Shown: positions 34,473 through 54,380 of the stretch, piece by piece | Layout of the letters: the number at the start of each line of letters is the position of its first letter | Position numbering within the stretch: position 1 is the first letter of the stretch | DNA from: Umezawaea tangerina | Lineage (GTDB): Bacteria > Actinomycetota > Actinomycetes > Mycobacteriales > Pseudonocardiaceae | Assembly: GCF_003002815.1 (NCBI RefSeq) | Contig: NZ_PVTF01000004.1 | Coordinates: forward strand, 62,001 to 126,000 | Direction of reading: 5' to 3' | DNA: 64,000 nucleotides | Notes under the pieces: generated by a model | What the model was told of the DNA's origin: nothing | Databases searched by the model: none | Seen by the model: only the letters and a program-made list of their open reading frames with translations | Translations under genes and position numbers: made by a program

Positions 34473-34871
34473 GTGACCGACGACGACCGCGTCTTCAAAG
34501 CGCTCGCCGACCCCACCCGGAGGTTCTTGCTCGACCTGCTGTTCGAGCGGGACGGGCGCACGCTCACGGAGTTGGAGTCGGAGCTGGCGATGACCAGGTT
34601 CGGCGTCATGAAGCACCTCGGCGTCCTCGCCGACGCCGGGCTCGTCGTCACCCGCCGCTCGGGCCGGGAGAAGCTCCACTTCCTCAACCCGGTCCCGATC
34701 CGGCTGATCCACGACCGGTGGATCGACAAGTACACCGAGCGCCGCGTCTCGGCGCTCACCGACCTCAAGGCCCAGTTGGAGGCAGCGCATGAGCACGAGC
34801 ACCGTCCAGGTCCACCGGGTGTGGATCAAGGCGACCCCGCAGGCGGTCTGGGACGCGATCACCAGTCCTGA
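34473..34871 (+). CDS. ArsR-family regulator
   Basis: About 132 residues. DDRVFKALADPTRRFLLDLLFERDGRTLTELESELAMTRFGVMKHLGVLADAGLVVTRRSGREKLHFLNP is a textbook ArsR winged helix (about 5-75) without the metal-binding Cys box, so it is probably not a metal sensor. Paired with a SRPBCC/AHSA1 gene, as is very common in actinobacteria. GTG start at 34473 preceded by promoter elements but no Shine-Dalgarno. The reading frame continues 83 bases into the next gene, giving an odd Gly/Pro/His-rich tail. Confidence 0.88.
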   Translation: MTDDDRVFKALADPTRRFLLDLLFERDGRTLTELESELAMTRFGVMKHLGVLADAGLVVTRRSGREKLHFLNPVPIRLIHDRWIDKYTERRVSALTDLKAQLEAAHEHEHRPGPPGVDQGDPAGGLGRDHQS

Positions 34872-35268
34872 GTGGAACGCCCAGTACGGCTACGGCTGCC
34901 CCAGCGAGTACGACCTCCGCCCCGGCGGCACCTACCGCGTCCTCGCCAACGAGGCCATGACCCAACACGGCGCCCCACCCGTCATCATCGACGGCGAGGT
35001 CCTCGAATCCGACCCGCCCAACAAGCTCGTCCAAACCTGGCGCGCCAACTTCAGCCCCGACCTCACCGCCGAAGGCTTCACCCGCCTCACCTGGGAGATC
35101 ACCGAGGAGTACGGCGCGGTCCGCCTCACCGTCACCCACGAACTCGAAGGCGCCCCCATGGCAGCCGCCCAGGTCGCGGGCGACATCCCCGGCGCGGGCG
35201 GCGGCTGGACCTACATCATCAGCGACCTGAAGACCCTGCTGGAAACCGGCAAGACCTTCGCCAGCTAA
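34789..35268 (+). CDS. SRPBCC/AHSA1-family protein
   Basis: 159 residues of START-like fold: VQVHRVWIKATPQAVWDAITSPEWNAQYGYG at the start, YDLRPGGTYRV, LVQTWRANFSPDLTAEGFTRLTWEI and GGWTYIISDLKTLLETG at the end. The fold makes a hydrophobic cavity for a small ligand; role unknown. The ATG lies within the 3' end of the ArsR gene with GGAGGCAG upstream, so the two are translationally coupled and probably co-regulated. Confidence 0.9.
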   Translation: MSTSTVQVHRVWIKATPQAVWDAITSPEWNAQYGYGCPSEYDLRPGGTYRVLANEAMTQHGAPPVIIDGEVLESDPPNKLVQTWRANFSPDLTAEGFTRLTWEITEEYGAVRLTVTHELEGAPMAAAQVAGDIPGAGGGWTYIISDLKTLLETGKTFAS

Positions 35269-35321
35269 CCCACCAACCACAACACACAACACCCGACCCG
35301 ACGACAGCCAGACCCCGCCGG

Positions 35322-35541
35322 GCGAAGCCCGATACCTTGTCCGACGCGAAGCGAGGATGCAGCGTCCGACGGCAAAGCCGAGGATCCGTCGTCGGGCGCA
35401 GCCCGCCAGCGCGCATCCGGCGCGGAGCGCCTGGGGCCCTGTCGGCGCCAGCCGATGCCTGGTCCGACGCGAAGCGCGGATGCCCTGTCCGACGGCGCAG
35501 CCGAGGATGCGGTGTCAGGCGCAGCCTGATGCTGGCGAAGC
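35322..35541. repeat. Array A of tandem GCGNAGC mini-hairpin units
   Basis: Eight GCGNAGC heptamers (starts 35322, 35346, 35396, 35422, 35469, 35495, 35519, 35535) and two variants (about 35372 and 35445), each flanked by a few complementary bases, recur every 23-26 bases; the last two are 16 apart. GCGNAGC is known to form an unusually stable mini-hairpin with a GNA loop. The right part is near-identical to array B at 54097-54219, in the same orientation and with the same spacing. There is no coding signal in the block 35269-35758 around it. Confidence 0.75.
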
Positions 35542-35577
35542 CAGATCTACCCCTGCCCCCGATACACAGCGCCCTCC

Positions 35578-35634
35578 TGCCCCACCCCCGCTTGTCAAGA
35601 TGGCTTTATCGTCTTGACAAGCGGGGGTGGGGCA
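35578..35634. repeat. Long perfect inverted repeat A
   Basis: Perfect 23-bp arms (35578-35600 and 35612-35634) with an 11-nt loop. The inner CTTGTCAAGA / TCTTGACAAG and loop sequence are shared with inverted repeat B (54253-54315), whereas the outer arm sequences differ but stay complementary. It lies 36 bases right of array A. As an RNA it would be a strong bidirectional terminator; each arm also contains TTGACA. Confidence 0.8.
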
Positions 35635-35758
35635 TTGAGACAATCGCGCGCCGGGGGCCGGGCTTCGCGCTCCGGAAACCCAAGGTCCCCCCAACGTGAG
35701 AACCCCCCGAAACCCAAGGTACTCACAGGGTCCGACATTCCCCGCGCCCCAGACCCCC

Positions 35759-36044
35759 TCACAGCTCCCCCAACCCCACATTCGCCTCAGCGGCCCACCC
35801 CACCGAGTCACCCCGTTCCGCCGCCGGCACCCTCCACCACCCCGAGCAGCCATTCGTGCACGGATGCCCCACTTCCCGCAGCACGTACCCCCCGTCCTCC
35901 GGTTCGGGTTGCAACCAGGTCATCTCCCCCGTTCCACCGCACAGGTCGCACGGGGGCCGGGACTTGGCCGATCCCTCCGCAGGTTCCACAGATGCTCCTG
36001 TCCATCGCGATTCCGGAGCCGTGGCAACTCGGACACTCGCTCAT
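35759..36044 (-). pseudogene. Frameshifted CxxCxGxG zinc-finger-like protein gene
   Basis: From an ATG at 36044 the reverse strand reads SECPSCHGSGIAMDRSICGT followed by CGGIGQVPAP, two DnaJ-type C-x2-C-x-G-x-G motifs. In the next frame, after a CCCCC run near 35948, the same pattern continues as CDLCGGTGEMTWLQPEPEDG, then HPCTNGCSGWW, to a stop at 35759. One frame change in the C-run would give a single protein of about 95 residues. The uncorrected frame ends at 35808 in Gly/Arg-rich sequence. It could be a real mutation, slippage-controlled expression or a sequencing error. Confidence 0.6.
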
Positions 36045-36150
36045 CCACCAATCGGATCACACCCAGTGTCGGATGTAACCAAGTGGGCACCCGCGATCAC
36101 CCGAAGGTGGTGCGGTAGAAGGGTAACGGGACCGTTGGGCCATTCGGGTG

Positions 36151-53349: not shown

Positions 53350-54006
53350 ATGTCACGGCTTCCCCAGCCGCCCGCTCCCGCCGTGCTGCAGGCGATCCTG
53401 CGCCGCACCGAGGACGTGGTGGCGGTGCACCGCGCGACCCGCCTGGTGCGCGTCTTCACCGCCAAAGGCCAGCACCCCCAGCGCTGGAACACCTTCCGCT
53501 ACACCGGCCCGTTGCCGCACGCCAGGTTCGACACCCACCCCCCGAGCCCCGACGGCACCCCGTCGGTCGCCCAGGAGCACGGCGTCCTCTACTTCGGCCT
53601 CACCGTGCGGACCAGCGTCGCCGAGGTCTTCCAGGCCACCTCGGTCGTCGACCGCCGCACCCGCAGCCCCTTCCTGGTCGCCCTGCGCCCCCGCCGCACC
53701 CTCCGCCTCCTCGACCTCACCGGCCTCTGGCCCACCCGCGTCGGCGCCTCCCAGGAACTCAGCAGCGGCCCCAAACACCTCACCCAAGCCTGGGCACGCG
53801 CCATCCGCGCCGCCTACCCGGAACTCGACGGCCTCTGGTACCGCTCCTCCATGGACTCCGGCGACCCCGCCGTCTGCCTCTGGGACCCCCCAGGCGCCTC
53901 CTGCCTACCAGCAGCCCCGGACGTCCTCCTACCTCTGGACCACCCAGGCCTGGACCTGCCACTGGCCAGGGTGTGCGAGGAGCTGAACTACACACTGCTG
54001 GGGTGA
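53350..54006 (+). CDS. RES-domain toxin
   Basis: 218 residues. RES domains are ADP-ribosyl-transferase-like NADases that deplete NAD. The three naming residues are visible: R59 in HARFDTHP, E92 in TSVAEVFQ and S166 in GLWYRSSM. YTGPLPHARF and VLYFGLTVRTSVAEVF match the family core. Activity would arrest growth when the antitoxin is lost. The gene is followed by array B of mini-hairpins, with 90 bases between. Confidence 0.85.
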   Translation: MSRLPQPPAPAVLQAILRRTEDVVAVHRATRLVRVFTAKGQHPQRWNTFRYTGPLPHARFDTHPPSPDGTPSVAQEHGVLYFGLTVRTSVAEVFQATSVVDRRTRSPFLVALRPRRTLRLLDLTGLWPTRVGASQELSSGPKHLTQAWARAIRAAYPELDGLWYRSSMDSGDPAVCLWDPPGASCLPAAPDVLLPLDHPGLDLPLARVCEELNYTLLG

Positions 54007-54096
54007 TCAGGGGCCGCTTCGGCCTTGGCACGCACGAACACCCACCTCGGGCCCCCACCCAACGCCCGCCCCTCGCGGCGCGAGGAACACGGACTG

Positions 54097-54219
54097 GCGC
54101 AGCCGCCACCCCCATCCGGCGCGGAGCGCCAGTGGCCTTGTCCGACGGCGGAGCCGAGGATGCCCTGTCCGACGCGCAGCGAGGATGCCTGGTCAGGCGC
54201 AGCCTGATGCTGGCGTAGC
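54097..54219. repeat. Array B of tandem GCGNAGC mini-hairpin units
   Basis: Six GCGNAGC heptamers (starts 54097, 54121, 54148, 54174, 54197, 54213) at intervals of 24, 27, 26, 23 and 16. The last units read TCAGGCGCAGCCTGATGCTG and TGGCGTAGCCAG, near-identical to the right end of array A. The stretch 54007-54380 contains only this array and inverted repeat B; no gene is seen. Confidence 0.75.
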
Positions 54220-54252
54220 CAGTCCCCTCCGGCACCCCGATCCGAAGCCATC

Positions 54253-54315
54253 TCTATGCCCACCCAAGCTTGTCAAGACAGCTTCACCGTCTTGACAAGC
54301 TTGGGTGGGCATAGA
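54253..54315. repeat. Long perfect inverted repeat B
   Basis: Perfect 27-bp arms (54253-54279 and 54289-54315) with a 9-nt loop, 33 bases right of array B. The central 31 bases differ from inverted repeat A at only four positions, while the outer parts of the arms are unrelated but complementary. Confidence 0.8.
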
Positions 54316-54380
54316 ACACTCGGCGACCGGGGTAGAGGCACCTCACCCACCACCCACCAAGCCACGCCCCAAGACCACCC

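Follow-up and report, generated by a model that had tools for sequence, protein, structure and literature searches.

A dispersed REP-like hairpin element of Pseudonocardiaceae and the strand-asymmetric mutation halo around its copies

Introduction

Sequences of the d(GCGAAGC) or GNA type form mini-hairpins, and insertion sequences of the IS200/IS605 family are known for replication-coupled single-strand transposition. Cytosines in single-stranded DNA undergo deamination and bypass, giving rise to C>T and C>G changes, and switch regions and mitochondrial strands are examples of this asymmetry. Among dispersed bacterial repeats, the closest described systems are the REP/BIME sequences with their RAYT (IS200/IS605-like) partners. 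As characterised in PMC2817692, they comprise more than 100 extragenic palindromes, form mosaic composites, are limited to clades and are apparently non-autonomous and dynamic.

The family described here has two copies, A and B, in the window, that is, the whole stretch of 64,000 nucleotides of Umezawaea tangerina DNA that was analysed. It resembles REP/BIME in numbering over 100 extragenic palindromes in one genome (174 exact cores), in its composite build, in being restricted to a clade, and in being apparently non-autonomous and dynamic. It differs from REP/BIME in that a cognate RAYT (Y1) was found in 0/11 carrier genomes, in that its array repeats all run one way instead of alternating as palindromes, and in having a long two-part hairpin with covarying arms and a strand-asymmetric halo. 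Because it departs from RAYT-associated REPs in two defining respects, it is filed as REP-like and not as REP. The window and nine loci gave 0 Rfam matches at gathering score, those in the element region all being below it and mostly to miRNA models, and no description of this element was found in Rfam or in the open-access literature searched.

Architecture of the Element

Copy A lies on the forward strand and begins with an array of ten mini-hairpin units about 24 nt apart (35316..35541). The initial annotation had described ten units built on GCGNAGC next to a 23-bp perfect inverted repeat, and both are present: eight units carry an exact GCGNAGC (35322-35541), the other two being GGC-AAA-GCC and GGC-GCCA-GCC, and the inverted repeat occupies 35578-35600/35612-35634. 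The spacing of 23-26 nt given for the array holds up to the last step, which is 16 nt. The inverted repeat forms the long hairpin (35578..35634, forward strand), with outer arms that are variable yet paired and a tip core TTGTCAAGA-N11-TCTTGACAA. It is enclosed in a structured hairpin domain (35555..35658, forward strand), whose outer stem GCCCCCG (35555-35561)/CGGGGGC (35652-35658) and internal loop, which has conserved letters, frame the long stem. A conserved 3' tail of the GGGCTTC type follows (35659..35676, forward strand), so that copy A is longer than first described, the outer stem extending the element to about 35676. No U-tract stands directly after the stem of copy A, which is followed by TTGAGACAATCG.

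Copy B has the order and orientation of copy A, as the same annotation had noted. Its array (54097..54219, forward strand) holds six exact GCGNAGC, and its structured hairpin domain (54233..54333, forward strand) carries a second type of flank and a long hairpin at 54253-54315, formed by a 27-bp perfect inverted repeat (54253-54279/54289-54315).

GCGNAGC is not enriched across the window (112 observed vs 100.8 expected), and what is unusual about it is its clustering with stems, not its overall abundance. CGNAG sites with at least three Watson-Crick pairs make up 199/270 in 31 arrays vs 414/4930 in the control elsewhere, a count that presupposes GNA loops; when 3-nt loops on 5-bp stems were collected in the arrays and GNA was not asked for, GNA still accounted for 114 of the 131, among the best 25 listed. 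It is this predominance of GNA loops that likens the arrays to the d(GCGAAGC) mini-hairpins, from which they differ in being genomic arrays, here predicted from sequence. In 31/31 copies examined (two 400-kb stretches, the window and five loci), the long hairpin is preceded on its 5' side by an array of at least four mini-hairpins in the same strand, and the array units are direct repeats on one strand. Several copies in G001 (Umezawaea endophytica, of the same genus as the window genome and likewise of the family Pseudonocardiaceae) have no visible array, so array and hairpin are separable. In Umezawaea, degenerate tandem units, as read from the sequence, are often found downstream of the hairpin 3' tail (e.g., G000:C1:616900-617300). 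A variant likewise recognised on reading occurs at L092, L100 (G027), L135 and L138, where the tip is enlarged by mini-hairpins inside the GTCAAG/CTTGAC stem.

Covariation in the Long Hairpin

The fold energy of the copy A region lies below that of shuffled sequences by 6.0 sd as RNA and by 5.7 sd as DNA. In alignments, 96.2% of the cells pair in 31 hairpins of the same genome and 98.2% in 76 hairpins from several genera, percentages that lean high, since the copies of both sets were selected by their core and the 76 rows also for at least 9/13 complementary arm positions. Without an arm filter, 1588/1694 arm cells are Watson-Crick in 121 distinct hairpins. Cells changed on both sides number 130 in the smaller set and 420 in the larger one, values reached by 0/500 shuffles in each case, and all four Watson-Crick types occur at 8/13 outer pairs of the 76 hairpins. 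These alignments bear out the earlier remark that the outer arms differ between copies and stay complementary within each. The invariance of the core in these two sets and in the arrays is by construction, as the copies were selected by it. Two of five covariation measures fail to beat shuffles in both sets, probably due to saturation: the number of pairs with a two-sided change was reached by 32/500 shuffles for the 31 hairpins and 40/500 for the 76, and that of further pair types by 455/500 and 474/500, respectively.

Base and internal-loop letters are common across genera. Mismatches on the strand with the pyrimidine loop are more often G.T than A.C (39 vs 11, p 9e-5), and the excess persists when distinct mismatch contexts are counted (29 vs 9, p 0.002), related copies not being independent. 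It would thus seem to be the pyrimidine-loop strand that folds. At the 7 sites common to G000 and G002, ungapped arm identity is 0.44, vs 0.45 for non-orthologous pairs, with a stem length that differs by one pair between some copies; core and arms differ at these sites, and the alignments show similarity in the element sequence next to them.

Family Size and Distribution

A search with the core TTGTCAAGA-N11-TCTTGACAA gave 174 exact matches in a 10.7-Mb Umezawaea genome (G000) and 0 with the reversed control, the gap being N11 at all places listed. The whole genome thus holds far more than the two copies on which the proposal of a REP-like, structure-conserved composite was first based, and the 174 exact cores together with the covariation uphold that proposal against two chance copies. 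A covariance model built from 31 copies had at least 104 matches in each of three Umezawaea genomes, and at least 150 in two of them. It matched 13/120 genomes of the family, in two of which (G022 and G109) the matches, when read, resemble unrelated palindromes. A different core form, GTCAAGGCA-N1-3-CTTTCCCGCCTTGAC, was detected in 69/390 Pseudonocardiaceae genomes (5/46 genera) with up to 86 copies, in 1/296 genomes sampled across the class, and not in G000. The named loci listed (at least 80, in at least 119 stretches) belong to Amycolatopsis, Umezawaea and Actinokineospora.

The core type is GACAG..TATCGTC in G000 and mostly GGCATCTTTCCCGCC in G001 and G002, of which G002 holds both, which suggests a concerted change of core throughout the repeat family. 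Outside the family, a lone copy (L285, in G464) stands 3' of a gene that by eye resembles a transposition-type ATPase, and this isolated position suggests acquisition by horizontal transfer.

Single long hairpins were also observed with a conserved noncoding leader (L105, L106 and L107; about 430 nt in the three aligned cases) that ends in CGCGCCTTGATCCCATAGAGCCAAGTTCGGCA. This end motif, allowing up to 3 mismatches, occurs in 138/390 genomes of the family and 22/46 genera, and in nine genomes listed the long hairpin is placed 306-310 nt upstream of it. The genes next downstream of the leader include PtuA/PtuB (Septu) and an ApeA-like HEPN. Ten further downstream ORFs, hand-picked from 30 loci and 3/10 of them without a Pfam match, comprise AAA_15/AAA_21, NACHT, NNH1-NACHT, an EcoRV-like nuclease, AAA_23/SMC, DUF6338 and DUF5677. 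In L107 (654-2300 and its neighbourhood), genes for RepSA (PF20199) and GntR adjoin one leader, which suggests a pSAM2-like integrative element with defence cargo.

Search for a Mobilising Partner

None of the 11 carrier genomes tested yielded the TnpA-REP (Y1) transposase that had been put forward as a possible partner. In a search of 21 genomes for Y1_Tnp (PF01797), only 2 were positive, both without detected elements; the control search was positive in 5/14 control genomes. RepSA, an HUH protein, was considered because single copies in three genomes adjoin accessory genes, once together with RepSA. It was rejected as a partner, being present in 19/21 genomes, some with no detected element among them, and not found in the carrier G011.

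Genomic Placement and Site Turnover

For the 138 copies with both neighbours called (gene calls, here and in the skew analyses below, were made with our own simple codon-usage caller), 72 are between convergent genes, 36 are sense and 22 antisense in tandem gaps, and 8 are between divergent genes, compared with 57 convergent, 150 tandem and 112 divergent among 319 background gaps of 150-900 nt. Copies inside genes amount to 0/130 in three sets. Over one 400-kb block, G000 and G002 have 7 sites in common, 3 are confined to G000 and 5 to G002, site counts that leave aside a further weak model hit in G000 (E 0.006). In the syntenic parts of that block no copies were found in G001, whose own three syntenic sites are in turn empty in G000 and G002. 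Copies are therefore gained or lost between species.

The ends of the composite are weakly inverted (82% over 17 nt). One candidate 8-nt direct repeat was seen at a filled site and not as such in the empty one, and no clear target duplication was found beyond it. As read from the sequence, at least one copy has as its neighbour a distinct terminator-like hairpin with a T-run, which likewise occurs at the empty counterpart, and a similar hairpin at another site has no clear T-run.

Strand-Asymmetric Mutation around the Copies

On the element strand, both flanks of the copies show a strongly positive skew (A+C)-(G+T), which fades by about 1.5-2 kb. In the window, where the 95th percentile of the absolute skew over the remaining 400-nt stretches is 0.175, it reaches +0.305 in the 400 nt 5' of copy A (34922..35321), extending into a gene for an AHSA1-domain protein (34789-35268), +0.27 in the 400 nt 3' of it (35681..36080) and +0.22 in the 400 nt 5' of copy B (53697..54096), over a RES-domain gene (53350-54006). 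The 3' side of copy B is without a halo (+0.065). At 550-700 nt upstream and 200-350 nt downstream, the skew is positive in 45/46 and 42/45 cases, respectively, for 46 copies of G000, and in 65/87 and 86/95 for 105 copies mostly from Amycolatopsis, which keep a trace of it at 2-3 kb downstream (p 0.01). For 18 copies of G002, it is positive in 17/18 upstream and 17/18 downstream. Its sign does not depend on gene orientation or codon position and is the same in intergenic DNA.

Comparison of filled and empty orthologues relates this skew to the presence of the element. Between G000 and G002, positions at 150-700 nt with A/C in the filled and G/T in the empty genome number 720, vs 145 for the reverse, and the direction is identical at 8/8 sites. 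The counts are 778:369 at 700-1500 nt and 1850:1466 at 2-5.5 kb, and 226:296 at sites filled in both genomes. G001, when empty, gives 664:177 against filled G000 (9 sites, one nearly without near alignment) and 1106:259 against filled G002 (11 sites, one without near alignment), two comparisons that overlap in sites; three G001 copies against empty G000 give 344:75. The far bins (2-5.5 kb) depart somewhat from parity, with ratios of 1.26, 0.90, 0.86 and 1.01. When derived changes are scored where two empty genomes agree, their rate is 11.4% at 150-400 nt, as against 4.9% beyond 2.5 kb. It is clearly raised near the copy at 6/6 G000/G002 sites with near data and at 1/3 G001 sites, the rise at the other two being slight (0.095 vs 0.082 and 0.139 vs 0.126). 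By this scoring, the halo changes arose in the genome carrying the copy.

The derived changes raised on the element strand are G>A (11.3% near vs 1.2% far, 9-fold), G>C (12.6% vs 3.9%, 3-fold) and C>A (2.2% vs 0.6%); C>T and C>G show no such rise there near copies. C>T and C>G are thus the main changes on the strand opposite the folding one, a pattern that fits recurrent single-strandedness with deamination and bypass. As in switch regions and mitochondrial strands, C is lost to T and G on one strand over about 1 kb, with the difference that the asymmetry is here centred on a dispersed bacterial repeat. A deaminase motif was sought and dropped, as no clear context emerged and the neighbours of the mutated cytosines are confounded by codon degeneracy.

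At 26 element-free convergent sites, the differences total 866:771, and the median ratio of the larger to the smaller count is 1.38; 3/26 reach at least 3:1, one of them 13.5, whereas by the same method 6/8 element sites are above 3:1 and 2/8 below. Windows of strong skew lie within 1.5 kb of a copy in 43/134 cases in G000 and 86/158 in G002; since many are away from copies, the skew alone is not specific. Of 14 such distant windows inspected, 12 have no stem over the threshold and 2 have a stem but no core.

Orientation and Replication

In G223, an orientation of the copies by two arcs fits 39/42 and agrees with the GC-skew arcs (Fisher 3e-8), the latter taken from 20 stretches, of which two are slightly off. 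The two-arc fit is 29/35 in G249 (p 0.006) and 21/25 in G252 C1 (p 0.03), the three genomes belonging to one genus. No such orientation was detected in G002 (47/69, p 0.32) or G088 (28/43, p 0.76), nor, by contig, in G000 (at least 126 copies listed, p 0.63). Lagging-strand orientation was discarded as a general rule. The pooled GC skew, which initially agreed at 78/99 named loci and 31/46 copies in G000, vanished once genes closer than 1-2 kb were excluded (G000, 25/46 at >1 kb; named loci, 47/81 at >1 kb, p 0.04, and 33/66 at >2 kb), so that the pooled signal is the local halo. The family resembles the IS200/IS605 elements in its hairpins, its strand-specific behaviour and the replication-like orientation arcs of three genomes, and differs from them in that no TnpA was found and in that such arcs are lacking in the window's own genus.

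Discussion

We lean slightly towards the reading that the composite is a dispersed, non-autonomous, REP/BIME-like mobile element of Pseudonocardiaceae next to which a putative factor recurrently exposes one strand. The element would consist of a GNA mini-hairpin array (in Umezawaea) and a long hairpin with conserved tip and base, and the putative factor would recognise the hairpin. The strand opposite the pyrimidine-loop strand would repeatedly be left single-stranded for about 1-1.5 kb on both sides by a nick, a gap, strand transfer or an R-loop, and its cytosines would mutate thereafter (C>T, C>G). The two palindrome arms would change fast and be re-matched to each other, remaining variable yet paired, possibly by mutation and copying of one arm from the other. 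We infer the exposure of one strand only from the mutation pattern.

It is unlikely that the composite is instead a transcript-level 3'-end element, be it a bidirectional terminator or an RNA stabiliser, whose structure is kept by selection on RNA. Its enrichment between convergent genes (72/138 vs 57/319 background gaps) and the excess of G.T over A.C on the loop strand, as RNA pairing permits, are what such an element would show, and like an intrinsic terminator it is a GC-rich hairpin often found between convergent genes. It differs from intrinsic terminators in its missing U-tract, its longer stem, its conserved tip and its occurrence in both orientations at tandem sites. Transcript-end control had been among the roles first proposed, and what speaks for it, if weakly, is a mild sense excess at tandem sites (36 vs 22); 22/58 of these sites are nevertheless antisense, no T-run follows the stem, and the terminator-like hairpin with a T-run beside one copy is separate from the element and present at the empty counterpart, the similar one elsewhere having no clear T-run. 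Site turnover and the halo are not directly explained by this reading either. We regard it as quite unlikely that the element is an ordinary MITE moved by a DDE transposase and that the halo merely reflects insertion into DNA that was already skewed and fast-evolving. The weak inverted ends, the candidate 8-nt direct repeat and the existence of strongly skewed windows without a copy would agree with it, but where the two empty genomes agree, the halo changes prove to be derived in the filled one, and their sign tracks the orientation of the element in both flanking genes, which target choice does not predict.

A binding site at which a chromosome-organising protein recognises the core palindrome, and whose orientation is set by replication, would account for the conserved tip and for the arcs of G223, G249 and G252 C1. 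It would leave without explanation the lack of arcs in G000, G002 and G088, the site turnover and the core that differs between sister species, and double-strand binding has no need of 13 covarying outer pairs; we hold this possibility to be distinctly improbable. Very improbable, finally, is a neutral palindrome with template-switch correction, whose arms covary by repair and which has neither function nor dedicated mobility. Such a sequence might well have near-perfect, fast-changing arms; base and internal-loop letters common across genera, an array joined to the hairpin in 31/31 copies of the same genome and dispersal over 174 sites are not expected of it.

Beyond the reading of a REP/BIME-like mobile element, it is possible, though we give it somewhat less than even chances, that the copies are strand-specific hypermutation elements, that is, mobile palindromes that drive targeted, strand-biased mutation in adjacent genes over about 1-1.5 kb through a putative nicking or unwinding enzyme. 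If this were true, they would constitute mobile elements of a new class and, at the same time, a natural system of targeted mutagenesis in bacteria. REP-like repeats generally count as dependent on Y1 transposases, and here more than 100 copies occur in a genome where none was found. The halo links a dispersed repeat to local strand-biased mutation of the adjacent genes, first and second codon positions included, so that gene evolution beside such repeats is distorted and should be interpreted with caution.
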